From Eunapius fragilis (Eukaryota > Porifera > Demospongiae > Spongillida > Spongillidae): 64,000 nucleotides of DNA. Under the pieces are notes generated by a model that worked only from the letters and a program-made list of their open reading frames with translations, ran no database searches and was not told the origin of the DNA. A program made the position numbers and the translations under genes. Positions within the stretch are counted from its first letter, which is position 1, and every line of letters starts with the position of its first letter. The DNA lies in contig OY811972.1 in assembly GCA_963681505.1 (NCBI GenBank), positions 8,512,775 to 8,576,774 of the forward strand. The letters are read 5' to 3'. This document shows positions 10,047 to 59,836 of this stretch, in pieces.

Positions 10047-10256
10047 TGTAACGATGACAACGGCTGAACTCTGCTAGCGACAGCCTGACGGCAGAACTTT
10101 CGAGAACTATAGTGCCGTGTGCATTAGTGAACAATGGTTGGTTGTAAGTAGAACAGTATATAATCGTGTGTATTGTATGCGTGTGGGTGTTCTGCGCTAT
10201 TATCAAGTTTATAGTCTGTTTGAGACTGAGGTTGCGCTACGCGGGGTTGCGCTACA
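10047..10256 (+). repeat. gypsy 5' LTR
   Basis: 210 bp, TG..CA ends, near-identical to 22692-22901; the difference I see is C versus T in gcgctaYgcgggg near the 3' end. It would hold promoter and polyadenylation signals. Confidence 0.95.
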
Positions 10257-10258
10257 AT

Positions 10259-10276
10259 TGGTGTCAGGAGTGGGAT
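10259..10276 (+). promoter_or_regulatory. primer binding site (tRNA-Leu type)
   Basis: TGGTGTCAGGAGTGGGAT lies two bases after the 5' LTR. Its complement ends in CTGACACCA, like the 3' end of animal tRNA-Leu, the likely primer for minus-strand synthesis. It overlaps the Gag ATG at 10275. Confidence 0.8.
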
Positions 10277-10539
10277 GTCTGAAGAAGAGAACATGGACAC
10301 CTCTGGGGGACCGGCCTCGGGTTCTGCGGGGACAACCAATGTTGTCGTTGAAAGGGTTGTCAGAATGGCGCTTAGGCCGCCTCCACGTTTCGGCGCTAAA
10401 GGCGATTGGAAGCTGTGGTTATCAAGGTTCGAAATGTATGCTACTCAGGCGAAGATTGCGGAGGACAGCTGGACAAAGGAACTACTCTCGCTGTTAGAGG
10501 ACGAGCCTTACCGCGTGGTTACGCACCACGGGCTAGCTC
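10275..10539 (+). pseudogene. gypsy Gag, N-terminal part
   Basis: An ATG at 10275 opens a frame beginning MSEEENMDTSGGP. It includes PPPRFGAKGDWKLWLSRFEM, the usual start of metazoan gypsy capsid domains, and continues to EDEPYRVVTHHGLA, where the hAT element begins at 10540. The reading resumes at 18081 with AQTDDYDAVCDCIQRSYAP, in the same order as intact relatives, so the interruption point is exact. Downstream codons read through the transposon are not real. Confidence 0.85.
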
Positions 10540-10584
10540 CAGGGCCGCCGGAGCCGGGGCGGCTGGGGCGGCTATGGCCGCTCC

Positions 10585-11053
10585 TACGGTGGCCCTGGAG
10601 GTCGCGAGCGAACACTGTACACTTGTGCTTTTCACGTCTGCGGTTTTGTGGTTTAAACAAATAACAAAAGGCGGTTTGCGTGTCCGGACATAACGCATGC
10701 TTACACAAAACATCGGACACAGAAACATCGGACGTTTAAACAAATAACAAAAAGCGGTTTGCGTGTCCGGACATAACGCATGCTTACACAAAACATCGGA
10801 CACAGAAACATCGGACGTTTAAACAAATAACAAAAAGCGGTTTGCGTGTCCAGACATAACGCATGCTTACACAAAACATCGGACGTATAAAACATCGGAC
10901 GTAAGACGTTTAATAACAATTCGCGTAAGACGTTTCATAACATTTTAAACACAAACTTTGATCGACGAGTTACTACAGTTTACGCTAAGTGAGGGAGGAA
11001 CGTGCAAACGTGTCGGGCTGGAGGAATGCACCGAGAAGACCGTGCAGTTGAAG
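10585..11053 (+). repeat. left long terminal inverted repeat
   Basis: Matches the complement of 16902-17459 from the outer end (TACGGTGG) to ..gaccgtgcagttgaa. It contains about three 83-bp subterminal repeats (10651-10899) against about four on the right, which explains most of the length difference. There is also a 9-bp gap near 11035 relative to the right arm. Confidence 0.9.
10651..10899. repeat. 83-bp subterminal tandem repeat, left arm
   Basis: gtttaaacaaataacaaaa starts at 10651, 10734 and 10817, exactly 83 bp apart. Each unit includes cgtgtccggacataacgcat and two acatcggac copies. The third unit is shortened and diverged. Subterminal repeats are common transposase-binding sites in DNA transposons; that role is inference. 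Confidence 0.9.
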
Positions 11054-11095
11054 GTACCTACCGACACTGCGTGTTCACTATGACGCCAAGTAACC

Positions 11096-11223
11096 AATCT
11101 CCATACAGGGCTTATTTTAAAATACTGGAGACAGCACAAGAATATAGGCGTGATTTTGACGTATCTGCACACAGTCCATCATGTTGCAGTCGGGTATGAC
11201 ATAGGCCTACATTATGTGCTTGT

Positions 11224-11304
<81 letters not shown>

Positions 11305-12549
11305 TGAGTGTGTGTTGTGCAAGTGACACATACACTGAGGGAGATTTGTATGTCTGTATCAATGCATGTCTGTCTGCATTGGGAGTGGTGTTTAAAAATG
11401 TATATCTGCATGTGTATACAATGTATGTTATTTGGTGTACTTAGTGTACTTGTTGCAGGCTGACATGGTTGAAACAGAAACTTGCAACAATGGGTCTAAA
11501 ACGGCGGAATGTGTGTGAAACACAGCTGTCGGTTGTGTACGACGCAATAAGGGTAGGTTGCCTGTTAGATACATGCACCATTAGTTTATGACTATTTTAA
11601 TATTTCAGCATGAGCTAAAGACATCTAACTGTTTGTTGGGTTATCGAGCCATGTGGAGACTACTGCAAACGAAATATGGTTATAAAACGAAACGGTCTGG
11701 GGTGCATTGTTGCTGGTGTGCACATGTGACTATACTGATACCTTGTTATAGGGCTACAGTAATGATGCTCCTTGCCGTAATGGACCCTGCTGGGTCACGT
11801 CAGCGTAGGATGCGAAGGCTCCAAAGAAGACGGTATTGAGTGCTAGCTTAATGAATCTTAACTGTATAAATCACCTTTGGAACATTTTAGGGTCCAAATT
11901 GGTGCTGGCATATTGATGGCTATGATAAGCTCAAACCATATGGGTTTCCTATACATGCTTGCATTGATGGGTGCGTAAAGTTATGTAGTATTTTGTTCGT
12001 AGTTCATTGAAACTCGCTGTGTACAGATTTTCAAGAAAAATCATCTGGCTTGAGTTGACCAGCACAAATAATGATCCTCAAGTGGTTGCTTCATTTTACT
12101 TGGATGCACTGCTTAAGCTAAAAGGTTAGCAAATATTCTTTTCAGTACCTACCATTTTGCAAAATGGCCATCTTACCCGTTTCACAATGGATTCTTCAGC
12201 ACTATGACTCTTCCCACCATTTTCCACACTCTTTCCCACATGCACTCTCACCCTTTCTATGAATCTATGTCTATCTCTTCCAGGTCTCTACATCCTTCAC
12301 ATGTCTATACTGATTGCTCTCTTGCATCTCCCTTCCTCTGTCCAATTTCCATCCTCTTATATATCCCAATCATCGATTCATATTACTATACCATGTCCCA
12401 TCACTCTATAGTCCCTCTTCCCTCATGACCATCTTGACTGCAGGTTGATATAGTGTTAATCTGGCCTATAATGTGCATGGTGTTATTCAATAGGGAGGGT
12501 GATGGATTGTTATCACTGTACACATGCATACACATGCACACACACACAT

Positions 12550-12597
<48 letters not shown>

Positions 12598-13452
12598 CCC
12601 AAATGCCATCATTATAAATCAGGGTGTCCCTCACGAATGCGAAGTGACCATGGAACAGAGAACACTATTATAGCCTTGTGTCAGATGGCACTACGACATA
12701 ATCATATTGATCATCATGCTGGATGCAATAGTTTTGTGTTTGGGAGCTCTGTCAGAAATACGGTGGGTTATGTTTCCAAGTAAACAGTTTTTGCTAATAA
12801 ACATTGACACCCCACAGCGTATTGAAAGCTGGTGGTCTAGACTCAGGGCTTTCAAAACCTCATGGTGGATTGATCTTTTCAAGGTACAATGCACCTATTT
12901 AGTAATTATCTTGCCTTTATGCATAGTGGTCATTGCCAGTCACTAGTTGAGGATGGTTTCTATGACCCTACCATCACACTTCAAAGGTGAGTCTGAGTTT
13001 TTGTATGCTTGTAGCATTCTAATAACTCTAAAATCATCACAGGCACATTGCAGCATATGTATTTGAACCTTTGCTGAGAAAGGAGTTGCATGAATTTAAG
13101 ATGAGGTGGAACCAACACAGGATTCGGTACAATAGACGTGCTGTGTGTCCCGGAGGTGTTCCTGATGACCTTTACACACTTTCAGGTCAGTTGTGTTTAT
13201 GCTTCATATAAGTATAGTACTACCTTCCTTCACCTAGACGATTGCAAACAGGACATTGATCCTGTTCTTCTGGCATTCTTGCTTGTAAAGTATGGATGTG
13301 ATGCTCCAGGTTTTTATCCTGAAGAATTTGGTGCCTTGGCTAGTCACTTTCTTGCTATCATAAAACTTACACAGGATGAGATCACACCCACTAACTGTAG
13401 GGACATTTACTGCTATTTACTCGGCATGCTTTCTTCCATTCTACCTGCATAA
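11096..13452 (+). CDS. IS3EU-like DDE transposase, spliced, one lesion
   Basis: Exons on GT-AG sites: ..-11193, 11459-11552, 11609-11694, 11752-11839, 11891-11970, 12027-12124, 12623-12762, 12818-12883, 12940-12986, 13043-13185 and 13238-13452 (TAA). All joins keep frame except the one after 11839. The N-terminal part has LTWLKQKLATMGLKRRN and GYRAMWRLL, a helix-turn-helix-like region, then RRMRRLQRRRY. The catalytic core starts GPNWCWHIDGYDKLKPYGF (first Asp), continues GFSRKIIWLELTSTNNDP, RSDHGTEN (second Asp) and RIESWWSRLR (Glu), so the DDE triad is complete. Lesion: an in-frame TGA at 11837-11839, at an exon end with a poor donor. No convincing ATG is visible; an ATG at 11027 could join through a very short intron. 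It would cut and insert the element at 6-bp staggered sites. Confidence 0.8.
11225..11301. repeat. (GT)n microsatellite
   Basis: Long uninterrupted GT run inside the first intron of the transposase gene. Confidence 0.95.
12538..12591. repeat. (CA)n microsatellite
   Basis: CA run interrupted by two TG steps, inside the 498-bp intron that separates the two halves of the transposase core. Confidence 0.95.
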
Positions 13453-13544
13453 ATAATGACTCTTGATTATTGCATTGGGGGTGGGAGGGGAGTGTAATCA
13501 TTGTTCATAATTATACATTACTGAATTATTCACCGTCATCGATC

Positions 13545-13690
13545 GTGTTCACATGAGACATGGACAGTACTAGCAGGAGAGACAAAAGTCACGAAGATAA
13601 GTCGAGATCATCGTTTACACCCCAGGTCCGTGCTGCGGTGCGTCGCATTATAAATGAGGTGGATCGGCGAATGGTTGTGCACTTATTCCT
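13545..13690 (+). pseudogene. duplicate of the kinase gene 5' end
   Basis: From tcgatcgtgttcacatgaga to about gaggtggatcggcgaatgg this stretch is a diverged copy of 13863-13990. It has its own ATG (13560) and encodes MDSTSRRDKSHEDKSRSSFT then PQVRAAVRRIINEVDRR, parallel to residues 1-44 of the kinase. After EVDRR similarity ends and the frame runs into unrelated codons. It may be a decayed duplicate or an alternative first exon; no good splice donor is evident at the break. Confidence 0.65.
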
Positions 13691-13883
13691 CCCCCTGCTT
13701 AGATGGGGCATGGGAAAGATTGTAGTGTGTTTAAAAGGAGCTTTGTCAAAGGTTTGTAGGTCAAGCCTGCCTCTCTGTCTGCAACATCCCCCCTCTAAAC
13801 AACTTATTCTAATTACATTGTCTCCAGGTATTGTATAAATTGTTGAGGAATTGTTTAGTTCGTCGATCGTGTTCGCATATGTC

Positions 13884-16168
13884 ATGGAAAGTAGTAGCGA
13901 GAGAGAGAAATGTCCCAATGAGTCTTCGTCGAAATCATCATTTACACCCCAAGTCCGTGCCGCGATGCGTAGCTTTTTAAATGAGGTGGATCGGAAGGAT
14001 AGTCACGAAATGGCTGAAAGCCTCAAGAAAATCAACACCATGGACGACCTGTGTAGCAAATACAAGGAGCATGTGAAGGAGAAGAGATCTGGTGAACAAT
14101 CTGGCTCAAAAGCTGCAAAGAGGGGCAAACATGAAAAGGAGGATGCCAAAATGTTTGGAGTAAGACGTGCATGCACACCTCCCATAGAACAGTTTTAACT
14201 ACATGTAGGCCTACTTGTATTGCGTGATTGAATACGATAGCAACATAATTGAATTCATGCTTGCGCGCCAGTTATCAATACCAATGCAAATAAATACCGT
14301 TATGCCGCTCACATGTTGTGCAAGGCTTTTTGGGCCTGCCATTGCACGCCATGCATTGCCAGTTCCATGAAAACTATCAGCACCTACTGATTCTGCACTG
14401 GTTGGCTTCTCTGACAGTTTAAGGGCATTAGCGTAATTTTTTTTCATGCAGATGAATGTATGTAGAATGAAGAAAACCAAGTCAGATGGATTTAAAAGAC
14501 ATGGCCAACTGCACGGAAGAGCTCGGGAGGATTGAGAAAAGCAAGAGGCTGGTGATTGGGGTATACATACCAAATGATGAAGTAAGTACCCTGGAGTTAA
14601 ATAATTGACCTTACATAATAAACACATACTTCCCTCGTATTTAAAAGGAAACTAGTGATCATTCTAATTCTGGAAAAGACATCATTTGTGTAGCAAAATC
14701 GCCATCCTGTTCCACAGAGTCCTTCCATGAAGGAAAAAAAGGTAGTTTACTTACAGAACTCCAAGTTGAATAAGAATTATTCTCTGATTTTATTTATTGC
14801 TATTTAGGAAAGTCCCTGTTTCGTAATTCAACAGCCGACAACCACATTGACCTTTGTGTGGAGGAACAAGGTTTGTGCAACTGCAGGCTATATATTACAT
14901 GTCCATCTCGCATATTCTTCCATTAGCATCACCACAACCAATAGCAAGCAAAGCTGCATCTATGCCCAAACTAGGTAAGTTAAAAAAAGTCAGTGAGCTA
15001 TTTTATGACACTGGATGTGAATATTAATTACTTGCATGCAGTTACTGCACGTGAGATTATAAAAGAACTGGATCTCACAGAAGGTACAACGTATATGATT
15101 ATCCATACCAGTACTACTATTAATCACGGTAGATGGACTGCTGGTACCGTTAGAGAAGATAGAGATTGGGATCAGAATTGGTGGTGGGACATTTGGGTCC
15201 GTGTACAAGGGAATGTTGTTTGGGACTGATGTTGCCATCAAGATTGTCACAATTCCTGACGGTGATGTAAAAAGGGAGGCCATGAAGGAAGTTGAGATAT
15301 TAAGGTACTTGAGCCATGGTATTACATTTATTGCATAAGTATATATGCATCATCTTTTAGGAAGCTCAGGCACCCCAATATAGTCAATCTAATGGGAGTT
15401 TGCTATGAGGTGAGCCAGCTGCTTCTTGTCACTAACTACATCAACGGAAGCAATCTAGAGCAAATCATTTTCAACAAATCATTGGACGTTAGTGAAAGTC
15501 ATATGTCATGCATACCTATAAAAACAATTTTATTTCCAGCTTGATACACTTAAAAGGATGAGCATATGCAGGCAAATAACAAAGGCTCTTGCTTACATGC
15601 ATGGTCGTGATCCTATAATCATCCACCAGGATATAAAACCTGCTAATATTATGGTAAAACACAAACATTGCATGCATACATTAAAAGCCACTCATTTCAC
15701 AGGTAACAAGCAGTGATTTACATGTCTTTGTGTGTGATCTTGGTGTGGCTAAACTGCAGAATAAGATAGCCATCATCAAGACGTCAAGAGGTACTGGTGC
15801 TGGGACTATAGCTTACAAGGCTCCGGAGATGTTCATGGTCTCCAAGCGTTCCACTCCGGTGGATATCTATTCATTTGGCTGCGTTGTGATAGAAATGCTT
15901 ACAGGTTAAATGCTATTTGAGTCTGCATTTGGCTGCATGCTTGCCTTAATTCAGTTTTTTTCTATCAGGGAAAAGGGTATGGGGCGATTTGGATGCATGT
16001 CAGATCACATGTAAGATTGTTGGATCGAGAGAGGATGAGCCCCAGTCACCCTCTTGTGCAGACGTTGCTGAAGAACACAGAGAAATCTGTGTTAGCAGTA
16101 CGGCTTTAGATTCATCTAAAAGACCATCTGCACTGGAGCTGTTGGAATATTTCAATAAGCAAATATGA
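13884..16168 (+). CDS. transposon-borne protein kinase, 11 exons
   Basis: Predicted 477-residue kinase. Exons: 13884-14159, 14486-14581, 14648-14741, 14808-14870, 14927-14974, 15042-15083, 15133-15304, 15361-15487, 15540-15653, 15703-15904 and 15969-16168. All use GT-AG, all phases match, and there is no internal stop. Residues 1-206 are charged and Ser-rich (FTPQVRAAMRSFLNEVDRK, then KYKEHVKEK and KRGKHEKED), with no known domain. The kinase domain spans about 215-475: glycine loop GGGTFGSVYKG (223-233), VAIK lysine 243, catalytic loop HQDIKPAN (Asp337, Asn342), metal site DLG (Asp356), YKAPEMF, DIYSFGCVVIEMLTG and SKRPSA. HRD is HQD and DFG is DLG, but Lys, both Asp and Asn remain, so activity is plausible. 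It looks most like TKL/RIPK-type Ser/Thr kinases (inference). It lies 431 bp after the transposase, inside the inverted repeats. Confidence 0.9.
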
Positions 16169-16172
16169 GGTC

Positions 16173-16245
16173 TATGTATGTATGTTGTATGTATGTATGT
16201 ATGTATGTATGTATGTATGTATATGTATGTATGCATGTTATGCAT
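16173..16245. repeat. (ATGT)n microsatellite
   Basis: Tetranucleotide ATGT run just after the kinase stop codon, with a few interruptions. Confidence 0.95.
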
Positions 16246-16681
16246 GTATGTGAAAAGTGATAACAATGATTCTTAAACAAGGTTTACGATGCATGGGAAA
16301 TGCTGTTGCCACATACGCACACACAACATGCAGCCTACAAATATTGCGCACGTGCTAATGTGCCCATGAATATTGTGTGCATAAACACAACACATGTGCA
16401 CATACAGCTAAATAAACACATATTAAAGCAACAGAACCTTAACCCAACATGCAACATGTTGCCTAGCTTACAAAATACGCATATGCAAATATGCTCTGGT
16501 ACACACACTGTGACACGTCGTTGCGTCGTGCAGAACCGACAACTGAATTTCACACACGTTTCGCCGTTTTAGCTAGACCCATCGCTGCAACTACCTGCAT
16601 GCATCAACCATGCCAATCTGTAACAAGTACACTACATAAACACATATACATACACACACGCACGCACGCACGCACGCAAGC

Positions 16682-16717
<36 letters not shown>

Positions 16718-16901
16718 CACACACACACATACACACACACACACACACACATATTGACAACGTATGTCATACCCGACTGCAAGGTGATGGACTGTGCGCA
16801 AGTACGCCAATATAACGGCTGCATTCTTGTGCTGTCTTCAGTACTTAAGGATAAGCCTGTATTGGTGGTTGTTTAGCGCCATATAACCGGCGCAATGGAC
16901 T
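16246..16901. other. 3' non-coding part of the kinase transposon
   Basis: Between the kinase gene and the right inverted repeat I see no gene. The stretch is CA-rich and has a compound (CGCA)/(CA) microsatellite at 16655-16752. Confidence 0.7.
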
Positions 16902-17459
16902 TTCAACTGCACGGTCTTCTCCGACTTCTCGGTGCATACCTCCAGCCAGACACGTTTGCACGTTCCTCCCTCACTTAGCGTAAACTGTAGTAACTCGTCG
17001 ATGAAAGTTTGTGTTTAAAATGTTATGAAACGTCTTACGCGAATTGTTATCAAACGTCTTACGTCCGATGTTTTGTGTCCGATGTTTTGTGTAAGCATGC
17101 GTTATGTCCGGACACGCAAACCGCTTTTTGTTATTTGTTTAAACGTCCGATGTTTCTGTGTCCGATGTTTTGTGTAAGCATGCGTTATGTCCGGACACGC
17201 AAACCGCTTTTTGTTATTTGTTTAAACGTCCGATGTTTCTGTGTCCGATGTTTTGTGTAAGCATGCGTTATGTCCGGACACGCAAACCGCTTTTTGTTAT
17301 TTGTTTAAACGTCCGATGTTTCTGTGTCCGATGTTTTGTGTAAGCATGCGTTATGTCCGGACACGCAAACCGCTTTTTGTTATTTGTTTAAACCACAAAA
17401 CCGCAGACGTGAAAAGCACAAGTGTACAGTGTTCGCTCGCGACCTCCAGGGCCACCGTA
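16902..17459 (-). repeat. right long terminal inverted repeat
   Basis: 558-bp arm, complementary to the left arm, ending CCACCGTA. It contains four near-identical 83-bp units, with gtttaaac recurring at an 83-base spacing from about 17137 to 17393. Confidence 0.9.
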
Positions 17460-17599
17460 CGCTCCACTTTTTACGGGTACATTTATAAATATTATTTAAT
17501 CCTTTCGCTTAGTTACTTTAAATTGAATAACCTACCAGCTGTCTTTAACTACCCTGAGATGTCATCGAATTCTTCCAAACCAGTAGTTCTGGTCAATTG

Positions 17600-17868
17600 G
17601 AGCTTCTGTCGCGGTCACCAAATTGGACAGTCTACTACTTGTAATGCCTGCTACTAATGCTGAAAGTGAGCAATCGTTCAGTGCTGTACGACGAATCAAG
17701 AGTTACCTACGATCAACAATGTCACAGCAGCGGCTCAATCACCTTATGGTGTTACATGTGCACAGCGATCACACAGATAAACTCAATTTGGTTGACGTAG
17801 CTAACGAGTTCATTGCAGACAACGAACATAGGAGACAAGTATTTGGGAACGGGTTTAAAGAAATCTGA
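17600..17868 (+). pseudogene. hAT transposase C-terminal dimerisation domain
   Basis: The frame reads LLLVMPATNAESEQSFSAVR, RIKSYLRSTMSQQRLNHLMV, then ends FGNGFKEI and TGA. This is the hATC dimerisation region at the very end of hAT transposases (the P-AESEQSFSA-RRIKS-LRSTMSQ-RLN-L block). The catalytic part is absent, so it is a remnant in the deleted hAT element. The sequence from 17869 to 18078 is AT-rich 3' non-coding DNA up to the terminal repeat. Confidence 0.85.
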
Positions 17869-18080
17869 TTTGTAGATATATAAAAGTGTTTTTGAGTGTA
17901 TGGTGTACGTATAGCTGGTTATATATAATGTAGCTATGTCATGTATATACATGTTATTAAATGTGTAATTTGTAGAGATTATTAATGGTTTGTTATGTAA
18001 CTTTTAATAATTTTATTACGTTATTGATCATGAATATTAATGAGCCGCCCCATTTAGGTTATCCTTCCGGCGGCCCTGAG

Positions 18081-19061
18081 CTCAGACGGATGACTACGAC
18101 GCGGTATGTGATTGCATTCAGCGGTCTTATGCAGTTATGCTCCTTTAGGTAGCGAGCTGGAGTGGCAGTTGAAGGTGCGCACTAGGGTGCAGAAAGTCGG
18201 GGAGTCATTAATGGAGTTCTGTGGCGCCCTGCGGGGCATGGCAGATAAAGCGTTTCCTGGATGGCCGGCTGAACAACTGCAGGACCTGCTGCGCAATCAG
18301 TTCATTCAGGGTGTTCTTTCTTCGTCGGTGCAGCTAGCGCTGATGAAAGAAGAGCCAAAAACCTTGGACGATGCATTGAAATTAGCCAGTAAGCACTAGA
18401 TGGTTGAAATGGCACAGAAGCAGTTGCAGGCGTTGAGGCAGAAAGAAGTTGTGGCATCTACAGAAGGTGAGAGCGCTAATTCTGAATTGGTTACAGCTAC
18501 ACTGCGCCGGGATAAAGAACGAAGTGAAGTGGAGACTCTGAGACGAGAAGTACAAAGGTTATCTGATGAGCTGAAAGGTGTGCAGCGGGGAGCAGGGGAT
18601 AAGAGCGAAGAACGGGGGAAAACGGGTCCTAAGTGCTGGAATTGCAAGTCTCGCGGACATGTAAGAAAGGATTGTCCAAAGAATGCACACGGAAGAAGGC
18701 AGTTAAAGTGTTGGGGATGCGGTGAGTTTGGGCATCTTCAACGTGATTGTTTGAAGCGACGTGGTGTCGTGCAAGCGGTAAGCTCATCTATGATGATTCA
18801 GGGAGAGGTTGCAGGGAGAGTGACCAGAATGCTCATTGATACTGGTTCTGGGGTAACACTGATTAGGGAAGATGTATGGCGGGATGTATTAAAAAGTGGA
18901 GGATATGGTTACCATCTAAAAGATCTTAACCATCCTGTGGTTGCAGCAAATTGGCAGCAATTGAACTTGCTAGGTCAAGTTGAATTGCCTTTGCATATTG
19001 GAAGCATACATACTAATTTCCCATTCTTAGTGGCTAGCCAGTTGACACAAGAGTGCTTAGT
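18081..19061 (+). pseudogene. gypsy Gag C-terminus and protease
   Basis: Continuation of Gag after the hAT insertion: AQTDDYDAVC, ELEWQLKVRTRVQKVGESLM and FPGWPAEQLQDLLRNQFIQG are typical capsid sequences. A TAG at 18397-18399 interrupts LASKH and MVEMAQKQ in the same frame; a Gln codon is likely ancestral. A coiled-coil-like basic stretch follows, then two zinc knuckles (CWNCKSRGHVRKDC and CWGCGEFGHLQRDC) and an aspartic protease with the LIDTGSGVTLI motif at about 18835. Just after CLV the frame breaks at 19061-19064: the pol frame continues GAEFLSKFNCQLDLGAG, so one base is missing relative to an intact Gag-Pol. Confidence 0.88.
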
Positions 19062-22000
19062 GGAGCTGAATTTCTTTCCAAGTTTAACTGCCAACTAGAT
19101 TTAGGGGCAGGAGTACTTGTAGTAGGAACTGAGGCATTGAGCATGGAGACGGATAAAAGGCGACCATCAGTTGGAGTATGTAATGTACAACTTATGGAGC
19201 ATGTGGAGGTTCCTGGGTCATCTCAAATGCGAATTCTCACTGCATGCAAAGGTGGCCTATTTGGTATACAGGGTTCTGTATTGTTAGAGCCCAATGCTGC
19301 ATTTATGGAACGTCATGGCTTGATGGTGGCTAGATCTGTCTCATGTGTGGGTAAAGGGTCTAATGAAGTACTTGTCCAGTTGCTTAATCCTTCTCCTTTC
19401 CCTGTGGTTCTACATAAGCAGGAGGTGGTAGGCACACTGTGTCCTTTGGAGGAACACAATAGCATGGCATGCTCAGCTGGAGTGGATGCCAATAACACTG
19501 GTGTTCAGAGCATTGTCAAGCAGTTGGTCGATAAGGTGGCAGACGGTGTTACAGACAATGAGAAGGATGAGTTAAAACAGCTGCTATTGAAGTATAGGGG
19601 TATTTTGTCACAATGTGAGGGTGATCTAGGGAGAACAGATTTAGTGTACCATCACATTGATACTGGGGATCATAAAGGAATAAAGCAGTCAGGTCGTAGG
19701 TTGCCTATTCATCAGAGGGAAGAAGTGAAAGAATTGTTGGATGACATGTTAGGAAGGAAGGTGATAGAACCCAGTCAGGGGTCATGGTCAGCCCCAGTAG
19801 TGTTAGTCAAAAAGAAGGATGGGTCCACACGATTTTGTGTGGACTTCAGACGCTTGAATGCTGTGACCAAGAAGGATGCACAACCACTACCTCGTATTGA
19901 CGAAACACTGGATGTCCTGGGGTCTGCACGGTGGTTCTCCTGCCTTGATCTTACAAGTGGATACTGGCAAGTGGAGGTGGCACCAGGAGACCGTGAGAAA
20001 ACGGCATTTGTTACTCCATATGGTCTATTTCAGTTCCGTGTCATGCCTTTTGGTCTAACAAATGCTCCTGCCACTTTTCAGCTTCTAATGGAGCGAGTAC
20101 TAGCAGGACTCCACTGGACAACATGTCTTATCTACCTGGATGATATTTTGATTTTCAGTGCAACAGTCCAACAACATTTCTCAAGGTTGCGTGAGATCTT
20201 TGACCGTCTGAAGCAGGCTGGTTTGAAAATAAAACCCAGTAAGTGTTTGTTGTTGCAAAAGAACATAAAATATTTAGGGCACGTTGTGTCAGAGCATGGT
20301 ATTAAAACTGATCCAGACAAAACAAGGTGTATTGCTGATTGGCCTACTCCATCCTGTCTGCAAGAATTGAAACAATTTTTGGGGTTAGCATCATATTATA
20401 GACGATTTGTCAAAAATTTTGCTGCTATAGTAGCCCCTTTAGTAAAGCTTACTGAAAAGGGTCATACATGGCATTGGTCATCTGATTGTGATGCTGCATT
20501 TTTCCTGGTGAAGGAATGTCTGGTAACAGCACCCATATTAGGCTACCCTGTGTTCAACCAGCCATTTATTGTAGACACAGATGCTAGTGGGGAGGGGCTT
20601 GGCGCTGTTCTTTCACAGTTTATTTCAGGTGGGGAACGTGTCATTGCTTTTGCAAGCAGGTCCCTGTCAAAAGCTGAAAGGAAGTACTGTGCTACAAGGC
20701 GTGAAATGCTAGCTTTAGTATGGGCAATCAAACATTTTCGTCCATATCTATATGGCAGGCGTTTTACAGTGCGGACAGACCATGCTTCTTTGCGGTGGTT
20801 GCAGAGTTTCCATGAACCAGAGGGTCAAATTGCTAGATGGCTGGAGTGCCTTTCTGAATATGATTTTGAGGTGGTTCATCGCCCTGGTACAAAGCATACT
20901 AATGCTGATGCCCTGTCTCGTATGCCTTGCCCTCAGTGTCAGTTATTGGTTCAACAGGTTGCTACAGTACCATCGGACATCTGGCTGCCATGTTGGACTC
21001 TGAAAGAACTTGCTGAAGAACAAAGACAGGACCCCAGCATTAGGCAAGTTATTCAATGGCTGGAAAATGAATGTATCCCCCCAGTTTTTCCAAAGCATCT
21101 GTCCTCACATACTCAAGCATTGTGGGCTCAGTCTCATTATCTGGTTCTGCACAATGGGGTGTTGTATCGGCAGTGGGAAGATGTTCCTTGCAAGGGGCTT
21201 CATAGAAGGTTGCAGTTAGTTCTCCCTCCTAATTTGGTCCCAGTGTTATTAGAAGCTTTGCATAGTTCTATTAGGGGAGGTCATTTTGGAACTAATAAGA
21301 CCCTTGCAAAGGTGCGCGAACGTTTTTACTGGGTAGGGCAACGCAAAGATGTAGCTGCTTGGTGTTCTGGTTGTCTGTCCTGTGCATCTAGGAAGCCTCC
21401 ACCTGCTAAATCACGTGCACCCCTGCAGCTTGATCCTGTAGAACGACCACTGCAACGTGTGGCGATGGATATCATGGGGCCTTTACCTGAAACCCCGAGA
21501 GGCAACAAATATGTTCTTGTTATTGCTGATTATTTTACTAAATGGACGGAAGCCTACCCAATACCTAACATGGAGGCAATAACGGTAGCTAAATGTTTGG
21601 TGAACGAATTTATTTGTCGTTTTGGTGTGCCTGAACAATTGCACTCAGACCAAGGTAGAAATTTTGAAAGTAAGGTCATTAAGAACATATGTGACCTTCT
21701 TCAAATTCGAAAAACTCGCACATCTGCATATCACCCTCAATCGGATGGCTTAGTCGAACGATTTAACAGAACTCTGTTAAATTTGTTGAGCACTGCTGTT
21801 GGTGATGCGGAACGTGATTGGGATGTTCACTTGCCATTATTGATGTTCGCGTATCGTACATCTGTGCATGAGACCAATGGAGTAACACCTTTTGAGATGA
21901 TGTTTGGGAGGGAGGTGGTATTGCCGGAGCATTTAATGTTTAATCTACCAGTTAGTATTGAGCAGGTCCCACAGGAAAGTGTCGAATATGTGGACCATCT

Positions 22001-22712
22001 GAAGAAAAGGTTCCAGCTGGTGTATCAGTATGTCAGACAGCATGCACAGAAAGGCATGCAGCGTCAGAAGACTGGGTACGATCAGAAAGAGAATACACCG
22101 TGTGTCTTTCAGAGGGGGGATCATGTATGGCTCTACACCCCTGCTGTTCCAAGAGGAAAGTCTCCCAAATTTCATCGACCATGGCAAGGACCGTATGAAA
22201 TATTGCGCAAAAAGGGAGAAGTCACATACGATATCCGACGACTGGCACATCCACGAAAAAGATTAATAGTGCATTACAATCGATTGAAACCGTTTTTGCA
22301 GGCAACACCTCATGGAGAACAGGAGTCAAGAGAGGAGGATGAGATGGCAACACCACGGGATGAACAGGAATCAGACGAGGAGGAGGAGATTAAGAAAGAG
22401 CCGCAGGGTTCACAGGCTGATTCACAGGATGAGCAATATTTATACGTGGAAACTAGGAGGCCAGAGCAGAGGCCAGCAGTAGAGGAACACGTACCCCCGC
22501 CTCTACTTATAGCCCCCGCACCCCCACAGCCACCACAGCCGCCTGCTGAGCCAGAACTACCTGAACCTGGAGAACGGTTGCGTCGTTCAACTCGGAACAG
22601 ACATCCTCCAGATTGGTATGGGCAGGTAGTTGTTCATTCTGTACTCACCTATACAAACTGTGAGGACACAGTTTCATTGGATAGGGAGCTGTGTAACGAT
22701 GACAACGGCTGA
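19053..22712 (+). CDS. gypsy Pol (RT, RNase H, integrase)
   Basis: A long open frame of about 1219 codons. Domain order: reverse transcriptase (YLDDILIF at about residue 361), RNase H (DTDASGEGLGAVLSQ near 508, later RTDHASLRWL), integrase zinc finger (H..H..C..C in HFGTNKTL, WCSGCLSCASRK, about 737-780) and the DDE core (MDIMGPLPETPRGNKY, HSDQGRNFES, YHPQSDGLVERFNRTL). The GPY/F-like module FHRPWQGPYEILRK follows. A Pro/Glu-rich tail (PPQPPQPPAEPELPEPGERL) runs into the 3' LTR, where the TGA lies. The true start is not the first ATG: this frame was fused to Gag-protease before a one-base loss. All enzymatic motifs look intact. There is no chromodomain. Confidence 0.93.
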   Translation: MLSGAEFLSKFNCQLDLGAGVLVVGTEALSMETDKRRPSVGVCNVQLMEHVEVPGSSQMRILTACKGGLFGIQGSVLLEPNAAFMERHGLMVARSVSCVGKGSNEVLVQLLNPSPFPVVLHKQEVVGTLCPLEEHNSMACSAGVDANNTGVQSIVKQLVDKVADGVTDNEKDELKQLLLKYRGILSQCEGDLGRTDLVYHHIDTGDHKGIKQSGRRLPIHQREEVKELLDDMLGRKVIEPSQGSWSAPVVLVKKKDGSTRFCVDFRRLNAVTKKDAQPLPRIDETLDVLGSARWFSCLDLTSGYWQVEVAPGDREKTAFVTPYGLFQFRVMPFGLTNAPATFQLLMERVLAGLHWTTCLIYLDDILIFSATVQQHFSRLREIFDRLKQAGLKIKPSKCLLLQKNIKYLGHVVSEHGIKTDPDKTRCIADWPTPSCLQELKQFLGLASYYRRFVKNFAAIVAPLVKLTEKGHTWHWSSDCDAAFFLVKECLVTAPILGYPVFNQPFIVDTDASGEGLGAVLSQFISGGERVIAFASRSLSKAERKYCATRREMLALVWAIKHFRPYLYGRRFTVRTDHASLRWLQSFHEPEGQIARWLECLSEYDFEVVHRPGTKHTNADALSRMPCPQCQLLVQQVATVPSDIWLPCWTLKELAEEQRQDPSIRQVIQWLENECIPPVFPKHLSSHTQALWAQSHYLVLHNGVLYRQWEDVPCKGLHRRLQLVLPPNLVPVLLEALHSSIRGGHFGTNKTLAKVRERFYWVGQRKDVAAWCSGCLSCASRKPPPAKSRAPLQLDPVERPLQRVAMDIMGPLPETPRGNKYVLVIADYFTKWTEAYPIPNMEAITVAKCLVNEFICRFGVPEQLHSDQGRNFESKVIKNICDLLQIRKTRTSAYHPQSDGLVERFNRTLLNLLSTAVGDAERDWDVHLPLLMFAYRTSVHETNGVTPFEMMFGREVVLPEHLMFNLPVSIEQVPQESVEYVDHLKKRFQLVYQYVRQHAQKGMQRQKTGYDQKENTPCVFQRGDHVWLYTPAVPRGKSPKFHRPWQGPYEILRKKGEVTYDIRRLAHPRKRLIVHYNRLKPFLQATPHGEQESREEDEMATPRDEQESDEEEEIKKEPQGSQADSQDEQYLYVETRRPEQRPAVEEHVPPPLLIAPAPPQPPQPPAEPELPEPGERLRRSTRNRHPPDWYGQVVVHSVLTYTNCEDTVSLDRELCNDDNG

Positions 22713-39541: not shown

Positions 39542-41953
39542 CTATTTTCTTGCTTGAAGTGCAAGGGTAGCTGCTTTGACTTCCTTGGCAGTAAGGTGGT
39601 AAGAGCGTCCAGTAGCTGTAGTGGGACTAACAAGAGTTAGAACATCCGACGGATCAATCTCCAGTATGTCCTGGTGCCGTGGGTACACATATGAATTGGC
39701 AGGAAGCTTAGGGTGTAGAAAAGAAATCTCTACACTTTGTTCCTCCATTTTCACCTTAGTGACACATCCAAGCCAACAATCCCCATCATAGGCCACAGTT
39801 ACATACCCTTTGATTGTTGACAGTGGAAGATTCTCAACATTAAGTGCTGTAGACACTTTTTCAATTCTCTTGGTTGGACTATAGGAGAACTGTCTAACTT
39901 CCACTGTACTGGTCGTTACAGGTATGACACAGTGCATTGATCGTGTTCCTGGAACCGTCCTACAGTGTGAGTACCGCTCTGCTAACAGCTTTGCCTCCTC
40001 TTCATGCTCGCTAGTTGTTGCAAAGGCGAAGTGTATTCCTTTGATATCTGATGACACGAACTGGTACAACTGCATAGGTGTCAGGATTTGATTATCTATA
40101 GGTCGCTGAAGGCTGGCCTTGGTTGCTGTTCTCTTCACTGTTCCTCCTATGCCATCTGCAGCTGACTTCCCGTGAGATGTGGCAAAAAAATGCCACTCTG
40201 CTGCAACTCCAAAATCATTTAAATGATGACAAATATTAGAAAAGTTATAGCAGTTCTTGTACTGTCCTGCACAGCCGTCTGACACATAAATAATCTTCTT
40301 CGGCTTCATTCCAAAATGGTCTGTTAGGAATGCTATCAACTTTCTTTGGAACAGGTGAACTGCTGTGGAGTCATGGTCTTTGTTTTCCGAGATGACAGTG
40401 AAAGGGATGCTGTTGAGCTTGTTGCCATTTAGCTCTCTGTAGTAGCAGAGGAATGGGTGTACGGTGGCTTGCAGGTTGTTCCAGTGGAAGCTCTGTACCT
40501 CGTCTTGGATGACAAAACTATAGTTCTCGCTAAAATCAGCAACCACAAGAAACTCTCCAGACCCCAGAGTTTCCTTTTTCTCACTGATGAATTTTGCCTG
40601 TTGTCTGGCTATGAAGTCATGCAATCGCAGCTTCAATAAGTACTCCATAAACAGGTCTAGAAAGTCTGCAACTGGAACAACATGGGTTTCAAGATTTGCA
40701 CGGTCTGTGTTCACCCACTGGCTGTATTGCACACTTTCAACTCCATTCTCCTCCATAATGGCTTCCAGCTCCACTTTCAACGGCTCTGTTCCCCGACATT
40801 CTTCACAAATACCATTTGCACAATCAGCAGTCGGAGGATCGCACTGAATAAAAGCCAAAAAATCACTGTAGTGCCTGAATTCACCCTTGGTGAGTGCCTC
40901 CAGTCTCGCTCCAGCAATCATTAACTTCACATTTTGATGTGATACACAGACGCATACAGAATGAGTACCAGTTGTACCAGCCAACACGCACTCCTTTGGT
41001 CGCAATTGAGTGAACTTCGAGAACCCCACCTTAACATTAGGATGCAGTTCTTTGAAGTGGTGATAGGCTTCTTTAAGATTGCACAATACAAGCCGCTTCT
41101 GCAGGTGCACCTTCTCTCCGTCATCATTCCTGGAGGACACAAAATCCTTCTTCCCTGGCATGACCCTGCTGACATCATCGTGGTGATAGAAGCTCTTTAC
41201 TAGCTCCAAAGTATCTTGACTAAGTGTCTTTCCTGCTTTGGAGTTTGGGCTGCTTAGCACTCCTTTATTTTCTACAAGCTTCTTTGCACTGCTAGCCATG
41301 TACTTCGTAACTCCAAACTCACTCATCATTTTGGCTACAGACCAACTCTTTGGCAGAATGGTTAAGATAGTGAGTTTTTCGCTCCTTGATGATGCCACAG
41401 CAAACTTCTCTTTCAGTTGCTTTATCATCTCCAGTCCATCGTCTTGTGTTTCCCTTTCTTCATGGCCAACTGCAAACAGCACTTTCTTCTTGAGCACATC
41501 TCCAACTCGCTGCAACTTTTCTCCAACATACGTCTGATTCCACATTCGTCGCTTTCGTCTAAAAGGAGAGATCCCTACTATACCAAGCACTTTGTTTACA
41601 TCGCAAAGCGTCGCATCAGCAGGCAGCATATCATCACCATAGGCATCGCTATCCTCCGTATCAGCAGGCGTAGGTTCACTACTAGTACTTTGAATGGCTT
41701 CATCGGCTGGTACAGAAGAACCAGGTTGGGCACTAGAGCATGCTTGCTCTTGCTCTTGTTCACTTGTAGGTGTTTCCAGCGGTAGCTTCCGTATGGCATT
41801 CAAGCAATTACAGCATGCTCTGTCTCCAATTTGCATCGAAAGAGATGGATTGGCTACGATCAAATCATCGGGAACTAAACGCAATCGAGCATAAATACGT
41901 CGCTTGTGACGGCTAAGAGGATCGCAACAGTACACCTTCCAGTTGATAGACAT
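39542..41953 (-). CDS. transposase of Sola-like element (803 aa)
   Basis: A single uninterrupted frame from ATG 41953 to TAG 39542. The N-terminus is basic with a CCNCL pair (about residues 48-52), followed by an acidic Ser/Thr-rich linker and a segment RRKRRMWNQTY. The middle has RPKECVLAG and a Cys cluster (CDPPTADCANGICEEC, about 370-385), a likely zinc site. The core has VVADFSENYSFVIQDEVQSF, KIIYVSDGCAGQYKNCYNFS and EWHFFATSHGKSAADGIGGT, with three well-placed Asp residues that I take as a candidate catalytic DDD triad. The family is widespread in invertebrate genomes as uncharacterised proteins; I infer transposase from the flanking inverted repeats and 4-bp duplication. Transcription would start in the right-hand part near the palindromes. 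The stop lies 20 bp before the left repeat. No lesion was seen. Confidence 0.75.
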   Translation of the reverse strand: MSINWKVYCCDPLSRHKRRIYARLRLVPDDLIVANPSLSMQIGDRACCNCLNAIRKLPLETPTSEQEQEQACSSAQPGSSVPADEAIQSTSSEPTPADTEDSDAYGDDMLPADATLCDVNKVLGIVGISPFRRKRRMWNQTYVGEKLQRVGDVLKKKVLFAVGHEERETQDDGLEMIKQLKEKFAVASSRSEKLTILTILPKSWSVAKMMSEFGVTKYMASSAKKLVENKGVLSSPNSKAGKTLSQDTLELVKSFYHHDDVSRVMPGKKDFVSSRNDDGEKVHLQKRLVLCNLKEAYHHFKELHPNVKVGFSKFTQLRPKECVLAGTTGTHSVCVCVSHQNVKLMIAGARLEALTKGEFRHYSDFLAFIQCDPPTADCANGICEECRGTEPLKVELEAIMEENGVESVQYSQWVNTDRANLETHVVPVADFLDLFMEYLLKLRLHDFIARQQAKFISEKKETLGSGEFLVVADFSENYSFVIQDEVQSFHWNNLQATVHPFLCYYRELNGNKLNSIPFTVISENKDHDSTAVHLFQRKLIAFLTDHFGMKPKKIIYVSDGCAGQYKNCYNFSNICHHLNDFGVAAEWHFFATSHGKSAADGIGGTVKRTATKASLQRPIDNQILTPMQLYQFVSSDIKGIHFAFATTSEHEEEAKLLAERYSHCRTVPGTRSMHCVIPVTTSTVEVRQFSYSPTKRIEKVSTALNVENLPLSTIKGYVTVAYDGDCWLGCVTKVKMEEQSVEISFLHPKLPANSYVYPRHQDILEIDPSDVLTLVSPTTATGRSYHLTAKEVKAATLALQARK

Positions 41954-42056
41954 TTTCGAACGTTAAAGCAACACTATTGAAGCGGATTCAGACTACAGCG
42001 AGTAGCGGTATTTAAAATAAAACTTTTATAGTACAACTGAAGAACAGAGGATTCTT

Positions 42057-57774: not shown

Positions 57775-57942
57775 CTGAAGAAAGACAGAAATAAACATGT
57801 GATACTGTATATAGGTGTTGAATACAAAAATTCATATAAACAGACAAGCGCATGTAAATGTAAAACTACTCCACTTCCTAACAACGCTGTCACTCATGGT
57901 ACAAATTGTGATGCTAATATAACATGTAAACTACAAACGTAC

Positions 57943-59716
57943 CATTTGAATATTTTCTTTCCTCTGCAATCCATACAGTGTGATTAGAGGTAAGGTCCAT
58001 GTCGGTAGAACAGCTGGTACATGATGCCAGGTTAGGGTCACTATCATATGGTGTGGCCACACCTTTGCAAGATTTATTAGAACAGGCAAAGCCATCTTTG
58101 AGGAGCTTCAAACTATGATAACGGAGAACATCACTACATTTTTTAATACCATCATATATCAGCTTTCGTATTCTGGGACAGGCTGTGGGAACGTCTCGTG
58201 CAGAATCAAGGTGCACCTCTATGAATAATGAGGAATCAATAATGGTGAATTGGGCTGGAAACTTTCTACATTTGAAAGACACGCAGTTCCTATAAAGACA
58301 AACTAGTACTTTATTCACCTCTAAAACTGAACATTCTGTCTGAATGGAAGAAACTAAGCAACTGAACAATCCAAATGGAACAAGATCATTTTGGAGGTGC
58401 AATAGGAGAGGTTGTGCTGATGCATTATGTCGTCTGATGCTCTCAGGACTAAGAGGGTCCAAAAGAGCTGGCATCAAGTAGTCACCACCTTCCAATGGAA
58501 CCATAATGAAGAGGTGGCACATGAGGGCAGTGAAATGCTCTACATTAAATACATCATCCAAAAAATGCTTCTCGAAGCGATTAACATAAAGAAAATCTGT
58601 GCTGACAATACCATGGTCCCTGAACTTAGAGCACCATGCATTCTTTACACCAGCAATGCCCAACACTTCACCTCCAGCCAACTCATGTTTACACTGGACT
58701 AGGTCTGAGATGATGTTTAGGATAACTTGGGGATCACAGAACACTATGTTGCGAAGAGAGGGTACATTATGGTACCATAGCAACAGGTTATATTTGACCA
58801 TGTGCAGGAGAGCTGCTTCTAGGGCTTGCTCATCCATACCTAAGCTCCGTGCCAGCTGAAGACATCTATGAAGGCTGATAACACCTCTTACAGCTGTGTG
58901 CTTTATCTGCATCTCTAGACCAAACCACTTTATAGGCAGGGAAGGAGTGGCTTCATCATTGCAGTGATCTACTATTGCATGCCTTAGCTCACCAGCTACC
59001 TTTTGGTCATAGGAATCAGGGTTTGCACCATTTATATCCCAGATTACGTCCACACCATTCTTGCATATCAGGTACTCTGAATTCACCATTTGCTTGATGA
59101 CATCACCTTTTCCCCCCTTCGTCTCAGAACACTTATCCTCCTCATCGCGGTGAGTTCCTACTACAAACAAATGAGGACGGAAATCTCTGGCATGTGCAGC
59201 TCTCACACACTGCTCCAACACCTGCTTGTGGGAAGATGGAGACTTGTACGGATTTCCTACTGGTTGACTGTCCTTTCCGTAGAAATAGATCATAGGGCAG
59301 TGGTTGAGACTTTCAGAAAGGTTTATAGCATAGAGAACAACAGAAACATCTTGAACAAAGACTGGTAAGAGCTCAAGAAACTGGGGCTGACCACCACTGT
59401 CAATGAACTGGACCAATCTAACGTTTAACACTTTCTTACTGCTTATATTTTTGAATGCTTCTATGAATAGACAATCTACTTCTCCAGTAGCTGGGTTATC
59501 AAACATGTCACGGTCACTAAGATGCTCTGCTTCCAATGGTTCTAGGGTAGATGGTTTAGGAGCTGTCTTAGCTGGTTGAGAACTTTTATTAGTGAGGTTC
59601 TCTGAAGCCATTGGAAGTGATAGAGGTTGGGGTATCTGGGTTTTTGTAGGTGTAAAAAGTGACCTACAGTACATGTACATGTACATGTTGCGCATATTTT
59701 TAATTAAAGTTTTCAT
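57943..59716 (-). CDS. Roc/COR-like GTPase gene, 3' part
   Basis: A large exon, open from at least 59716 to a donor at 57943 (AATG/GTACGT). The likely true acceptor is CTGTAG near 59664, so the first residues up to about SLFTPTKTQ may be intron. A Ser/Pro-rich linker is followed by VRLVQFIDSGGQPQFLELLP (the DxxGQ G3 motif), LNHCPMIYFYGKDSQPVGNP and FVVGTHRDEED (G4, THRD as in Roc domains). Then a COR-like region: KWFGLEMQIKHTAVRGVISL, LEAALLHMVKYNLLLWYHNV and NIVFCDPQVILNIISDLVQ. A C-terminal segment (CSNKSCKGV ... CTSCSTD) holds two Cys pairs, perhaps zinc-binding. The P-loop (G1) is not here and must lie in an upstream exon beyond 59716. With the Death domain this resembles Roco/DAPK-type and related Roc-COR-Death proteins. 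Confidence 0.82.
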
Positions 59717-59836
59717 ATTCTAAGAGACACTTATGGCCTCTACAACTTTTTTCTTATGCACTGGAAATTAGTCTGTCCATCATGGAGTTACAGTGGCCTG
59801 AATTACTTGGACATTTTAATTGCATGCATCAATTTA

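Follow-up and report, generated by a model that had tools for sequence, protein, structure and literature searches.

We analyzed a 64,000-nucleotide stretch of the genome of the sponge Eunapius fragilis (contig OY811972.1, positions 8,512,775 to 8,576,774; referred to here as the window), in which the original prediction, made from the letters alone, had placed a DNA transposon carrying an intact protein kinase gene. The element, located at 10585-17459, is a damaged copy of an IS3EU-like transposon that holds a transposase gene and a kinase gene. It probably represents an old two-gene lineage, resident in genomes of the freshwater-sponge type, in which the kinase would act as an accessory transposition protein, and we consider it very likely that the kinase gene is owned by the element and kept there by selection. 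Sequence comparisons indicate that the element kinases are TKL-like, non-RD enzymes with a lineage-specific N-terminal domain (NTD), that they form one clade, and that they are linked to a transposase in about ten subfamilies, the grouping being our own.

Structure of the element in the window

Flank comparison revealed a perfect 6-bp target site duplication, CGCTCC, at 10579-10584 and 17460-17465, the borders of the element reading CGCTCC/TACGG...CCGTA/CGCTCC. By inverted-repeat comparison, the left terminal repeat spans 10585-11047 on the forward strand and begins with TACGGTGG, while the right one spans 16916-17459 on the reverse strand and closes with CCACCGTA. Their arms match in an outer pair (10585-10891 and 17153-17459, 98% identity over 307 bp) and an inner pair (10889-11047 and 16916-17074, 95% identity over 159 bp) and consist in part of a tandemly repeated unit of about 83 bp, a spacing taken from match offsets; weaker inverted similarity (78%) was found at 11091-11248. 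According to PMC10045372, IS3EU elements are marked by TA..TA ends and usually by 6-bp duplications, and the window ends fit the TA..TA, TAYGG..CCRTA rule of rust IS3EU families. With such ends, 6-bp duplications and an integrase-like DDD/E transposase, the element is IS3EU-like.

Inside the element, the transposase gene is followed by the kinase gene on the same strand, the arrangement that had been predicted. The former (11026-13452, forward strand) was resolved by alignment into 12 exons, and its product matches the integrase-type domain PF24764 at 3.5e-21; D, D and E residues, picked by eye, are visible in the aligned sequence. As anticipated, it carries a stop, a single in-frame codon at 11837-11839, at the end of exon 5. 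The kinase frame (13884-16168, forward strand) comprises 477 codons in 11 exons (13884-14159, 14486-14581, 14648-14741, 14808-14870, 14927-14974, 15042-15083, 15133-15304, 15361-15487, 15540-15653, 15703-15904 and 15969-16165 plus stop) separated by ten GT-AG introns. It encodes a protein kinase (PF00069 match at 9.4e-49, PF07714 matched too) and retains the catalytic Lys, both Asp and the Asn, as first proposed, together with the alphaC Glu, the second Asp being that of a DLG motif.

The kinase domain proper is an open frame in the window copy. However, the gene as a whole cannot be called intact. Compared with three copies elsewhere in the genome (L022, L024 and L025), about 176 bp, as measured on L022, are gone between 14514 and 14515, inside the true second exon, whose truncated remainder lies at 14452-14581 on the forward strand (sibling alignment and genome search). 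This deletion takes out most of the conserved NTD and breaks the kinase frame. The predicted set of 11 exons with GT-AG introns was recovered as such, but its exon 2 uses an AG that lies within the true exon, downstream of the true acceptor. Upstream of exon 1, at 13557-13838 on the forward strand, we noted a shorter duplicate of it with its own start (an open frame containing MDSTSRRDKS...), which sibling copies and divergent deletion copies retain as well and which is possibly an alternative start.

Recurrence of the kinase-transposase pair in the genome

The genome (219 Mb, 24 contigs; loci are labelled L and contigs C) was searched with the kinase and transposase at the level of exons, and all counts refer to the matches listed. 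The terminal repeat gave 52 scored matches. Twenty loci were examined, namely the window and L021-L039, and both ends were seen in 11 of them; since sibling ends were located by motif, their agreement is by construction. The duplication is perfect in six of the 11, each time with a different sequence (CGCTCC, CCTTTG, CATATG, CACCTG, CTCCAG and AAGAAG), and imperfect in the other five, including L024, whose right end is doubled. Of the 19 loci fetched, six (L022-L026 and the more divergent L032) show similarity to the kinase domain. Both genes are carried by L022, with a CATATG duplication and a partly deleted transposase, by L023, with a CACCTG duplication and a partly deleted kinase, and by the longer copies L024 and L025, which have no perfect duplication. 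The transposase frame is open across all 384 aligned residues in L025 and across residues 11-384 in L021, contains stops and a frameshift in L024, and has one frameshift each in L023 and L026. Furthermore, a relative on C1, found through its genes, has an open transposase of 384 residues with no stop or frameshift and an open NTD and kinase; its readable end, ..GGCCACCGTA, is the same as in the window, while the left end reads N. A 21-base terminal pattern allowing up to 3 mismatches yielded 335 + 319 matches, compared with 6 + 5 for the control; the superfamily is thus large.

These copies bear on the possibility that a host kinase was placed between the element ends by a chimeric assembly or a nested insertion. 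Other mobile-element-like frames do lie nearby, as judged by eye, but the arrangement recurs at other sites, at two of them with their own perfect target duplications. A one-copy accident or chimera is thereby excluded as an account of the pair, and we give this explanation practically no weight. The two-gene copies predicted for other sites were found, some of them partly deleted, and the kinase is not confined to the window.

Linkage was then assessed for the kinase loci as a set, with one entry per locus and extra exons dropped by hand; 33 of the loci reach an identity of 40%, and 91 fall short of it. A listed transposase match (about 100 places) was present within 8 kb of 20 of the 33 loci and of none of the 91 (Fisher 1e-14, the copies not being independent). 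When element ends or a transposase in fetched DNA were added, the count rose to 27 of 33, a figure with no equal control, DNA having been fetched for the upper group alone. The two genes are convergent in 11 of the 20 linked loci, parallel in eight and divergent in one (on C3), and in three of the 11 convergent pairs (C9, C11 and C6), another transposase piece lies on the opposite side. Among the end matches listed, exact ends flank the C3 pair (kinase and NTD at 14265312-14268223, transposase at 14272454-14274086) at 14263691 on one side and 14276481 on the other, a distance of 12.8 kb; less exact ends between them are possible. On C11 and C9, the pairs lie between mirrored arms, both of which carry early transposase exons (residues 1-120 on C11 and 57-118 on C9), and the mirrored arm coordinates agree in their sums. 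A stretch of 3.4 kb, in which the kinase domain is accompanied by a portion of the transposase, is at least 99.97% identical among L060, L061 and L062, and 99.7% in L064, at four places on three contigs (C2, C18 twice, and C14). Either the stretch spread recently as one unit or it was duplicated, the ends of the L060 family not being seen. In another locus (L066, C6:760225-763599), the kinase sits between 952-bp inverted arms (96%), each with transposase 3' exons.

Six of the 33 loci have no listed transposase or end nearby. Two of these (C5:8.80M and C4:9.47M) are 90-92% DNA copies of linked loci, two (C16 and C9:7.21M) have an NTD upstream and the other two are single short matches, so that none is clearly a host gene. 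Likewise, no clear close host parent of the kinase was evident at 40% identity or more among the matches listed in this exon-level search. At C18:40239-864753, 21 listed matches to the kinase (27-38% identity, mostly uninterrupted frames) are densely packed, apparently as a host kinase gene cluster.

Protein relatives, domain makeup and constraint

The 19 proteins closest to the window kinase consist of nine from Ephydatia muelleri, nine with Em codes, which we take to denote the same species, and one unnamed (47-78% identity over 27-100%). Nine of the 19 hold PF24764 and PF00069 in one model, and the Ephydatia models joining transposase and kinase are P0001-P0006, P0013, P0016, P0019, P0125 and P0153. 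The two activities might therefore reside in one fusion protein. However, the window transposase closes with its own stop codon ahead of kinase exon 1, and convergent genes, as in the 11 linked loci mentioned above, cannot share a transcript. Moreover, the P0016 model runs on into a photolyase, and P0018, which has a kinase and no transposase, into other sequence, which suggests that at least some Ephydatia models are merged; automatic gene models often merge neighbours. A fusion is, in our opinion, very unlikely. The P0013 transposase has 69 relatives within the search length limits, eight of them with a kinase domain, all from Ephydatia or Em-coded. The domain occurs in none of the 58 relatives that are neither, and the association may therefore be a sponge speciality.

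The NTD comprises about 95 residues and is also present in the Ephydatia models; a protein search with it retrieved five proteins, all Ephydatia or Em-coded. It could be read as one exon without frameshift in seven of 15 loci tried (C1, L042, L043, L048, L049, L050 and L022). The fetched DNA of the other eight (L040, L041, L054, L059, L060, L065, L066 and L069) contained no credible NTD match, and the genome search places the domain further upstream for several of them (C3, C6, C2, C18 and C14). Among the matches listed in that search, siblings on C4, C7, C9 and C11 are present and the window copy is absent. An NTD match lies upstream of the kinase at 20 of the 33 listed loci of at least 40% identity, whereas 10 of the 32 listed NTD matches have none of these 33 kinases downstream; one of the ten adjoins a 39% kinase on C19.

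Of the divergent kinase loci, 19 were spliced by alignment, and 14 of them are free of stops and frameshifts within the matched region, which in L066 and L069 is only a portion of the kinase domain; the five with such lesions are L032, L040, L059, L063 and L065. The catalytic Lys, Glu, Asp, Asn and Asp are kept in the window kinase and its relatives wherever these positions are covered, the gaps being L066 (no N-lobe), Em_P0003 (no HxD exon), and L024 and L025 (frameshifted beside the Lys). The covered rows show neither an RD loop nor DFG; instead, they read HQD, HHD or HID and DLG or DMG, as in a non-RD kinase. Between subfamilies, synonymous divergence (dS) of the kinase is saturated in 12 of 13 pairs, with nonsynonymous divergence (dN) held at 0.30-0.49, and the remaining pair has a dS of 2.8 and a dN/dS of 0.17. 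For the transposase, dN is 0.25-0.40 in six pairs, again with saturated dS. These values point to long-term purifying selection on both genes. In the tree, a branch supported at 100/99 separates the 14 element kinases from 12 other kinases, no sponge host kinase being included. Kinase distances parallel transposase distances in these comparisons (Mantel r 0.85, p 0.0004; eight elements, namely six loci from this genome and two Ephydatia models). The original prediction had also allowed for a captured host gene; one old, constrained clade disfavours recent capture, with the reservation that the tree had no sponge host kinase.

Several observations weigh against an element-owned kinase with a role in transposition. 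(i) When kinases of the same subfamily are compared, 10 of 13 pairs have a dN/dS of 0.28-0.90, close to the expectation for decay after insertion; of the remaining pairs, L066/L069 is an outlier at 8.8, on 0.3 silent changes, and two have no silent change, and the values for L024 include a doubtful exon border. (ii) The Mantel correlation falls to r 0.65 (p 0.024) once a close Ephydatia row is left out. (iii) A locus in the lower identity group (C19:2469094, 39%) resembles a decayed element copy, and the 40% line is thus not sharp. (iv) A scan of three forms of the NTD against Pfam gave a sole match at E 0.12, and the best match to solved structures has an E of 0.22. (v) All six spliced copies of the window family (the window and L022-L026) have a kinase lesion or deletion: besides the window deletion, L024 and L025 have frameshifts, L022 has one upstream of the kinase domain, and L023 and L026 are without much of the kinase. 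(vi) The C1 family has at least eight copies of 2.9-3.6 kb with both arms visible and no listed kinase match. These relatives without a listed kinase (L070 300-1315 and its relatives), which do match the transposase, form a large family, several with arms of about 0.5 kb and with an end common to the kinase-bearing C1 element. Such copies are common, so not every element needs a kinase of its own in cis; the enzyme may act in trans or just modulate transposition.

The commonness of kinase lesions in the window family and of kinase-less relatives would also suit a passive passenger, that is, a host kinase captured once and carried without benefit. This is hard to reconcile with open frames and catalytic residues kept despite saturated silent divergence, with a single kinase clade, and with unlinked listed loci at 40% or more of which none is clearly a host gene, and we regard it as highly improbable.

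As to the surroundings of the element, mobile-element-like frames are located at 10230-10560 and 17587-22712, the latter including a stretch judged by eye to be hAT-type C-terminal sequence (17587-17868) and a retrotransposon-type open frame (18400-22712). Long overlapping frames at 20-1035 of the window are a minisatellite (YWSIGLCAVYHSSLLE...) and not a gene, and uninterrupted frames of 806 and 601 amino acids are present on the reverse strand at 39542-41962 and 57914-59719, respectively. An Rfam scan of the window gave no match.

Possible roles of the kinase and comparison with known systems

Transposases are regulated by host kinases. These findings led us to hypothesize that the element kinase would be an accessory transposition protein acting in trans. 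Through the NTD, possibly a new protein domain, the kinase would be recruited by the transposase, by the element ends or by a partner from the host. Its substrate would be either the transposase itself or a host factor of repair, the cell cycle or silencing, and this phosphorylation could let the element move or escape control. Direct action on the transposition complex is a narrower proposal, to which we give slightly less than an even chance. An element-owned, conserved kinase would open such regulation to genetics on a two-gene element.

The kinase might instead damp the transposase, for example, by phosphorylation at rising copy number, and so protect both host and element. The same linkage and constraint fit such autoregulation, with the abundant kinase-less copies as escapees, and the present evidence fits damping and activation alike; we hold this option to be rather improbable. 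The kinase might also mainly phosphorylate host silencing, stress or immune-type signalling proteins, by which the element or its carrier cell escapes control. The TKL-like, non-RD character of the element kinases (HQD/HHD/HID, DLG), a makeup associated with RIPK- and plant-immunity-type kinases, speaks for such counter-defence. So do the solved structures nearest to P0013, those of CTR1, MLK, TAK1, Raf and others, and the host-type kinase array on C18 of the same genome. Moreover, a TET/JBP dioxygenase of fungal IS3EU elements has been read as a means of escape from methylation in PMC12730594. Against counter-defence, the kinase is accompanied in the loci read by the transposase rather than by any other recognised cargo, and we deem this reading unlikely, albeit worth keeping in mind. 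The accessory transposition protein is the reading that we prefer.

According to the same source (PMC12730594), the TET-positive IS3EU elements of fungi have, in all families, the TET/JBP gene between a transposase gene and an alpha-kinase gene, these two being opposite in orientation; PMC4469406 notes a strong expansion of alpha-kinases in rusts. The original prediction that no IS3EU element with a kinase cargo had been described thus fails for the fungal alpha-kinase and stands for a conventional kinase with an NTD in an animal IS3EU element, which was not found in the open-licence literature searched. In that literature, as far as the excerpts extend, the fungal alpha-kinase was the sole kinase gene in a DNA transposon (PMC12730594). 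Styx, an IS3EU-related element, has four coding sequences, and in the available text of PMC10853768 the only kinase mentioned is a neighbouring gene; a word search of PMC6431247 did not find "kinase". The window kinase itself was considered as an alpha-kinase and rejected: it matches PF00069 and PF07714 and not PF02816, and the nine alpha-kinase matches in the genome (seven places, five contigs) include none, by eye, within 8 kb of the listed transposases.

IS3EU elements at large and the sponge elements have in common TA..TA ends (TACGG..CCGTA here, TAYGG..CCRTA in rusts), 6-bp duplications and an integrase-type DDD/E transposase. The enzymes differ: the fungal elements carry an alpha-kinase, with TET/JBP in the described set, whereas the sponge elements carry a TKL-like kinase with an NTD. 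The genes are opposite in the fungal elements and also, convergently, in 11 of the 20 linked sponge loci, while the window family has both genes running in the same direction. Two kinase types in IS3EU-type elements of two kingdoms make a life-cycle function likelier than chance capture and, the types being unrelated, point to a shared need. We tentatively suggest, with more doubt than confidence, that IS3EU elements depend on phosphorylation, that an enzyme of their own was gained at least twice (an alpha-kinase in fungi and, in sponges, a TKL-like kinase equipped with a domain for targeting) to phosphorylate the transposition machinery or host partners of it, and that they would be the first known case of cut-and-paste elements whose cargo includes a signalling enzyme serving as a cofactor of transposition.

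Among animal proteins, the Ephydatia muelleri models (EMCRGX_G000323; Em0007g147a, Em0007g378a) belong to the same transposase, NTD and kinase families. Several join both genes, and their entries give either "hypothetical protein" or just a code, with no mention of transposon genes. For genome annotation, the caution is that one family of sponge "kinase genes" is carried by transposons. In a broader comparison, Kolobok lineages resemble the present one as DDE transposons that keep a second, lineage-specific enzyme, yet they belong to another superfamily and their accessory enzyme is an exonuclease, helicase or His-Me finger nuclease and no kinase, according to PMC9587614. With respect to the kinase, CTR1, MLK (MAP3K9), TAK1 (MAP3K7) and Raf are among the closest solved structures to P0013, and the named proteins nearest to the window kinase outside the sponge include plant kinases of the CTR1 and MAPKKK types, the TKL kinases sharing about 26-38% identity with the window kinase in the listed matches. 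Unlike CTR1, MLK, TAK1 and Raf, which we take to be RD kinases with DFG, the element kinases are non-RD, have DLG or DMG and carry the NTD.

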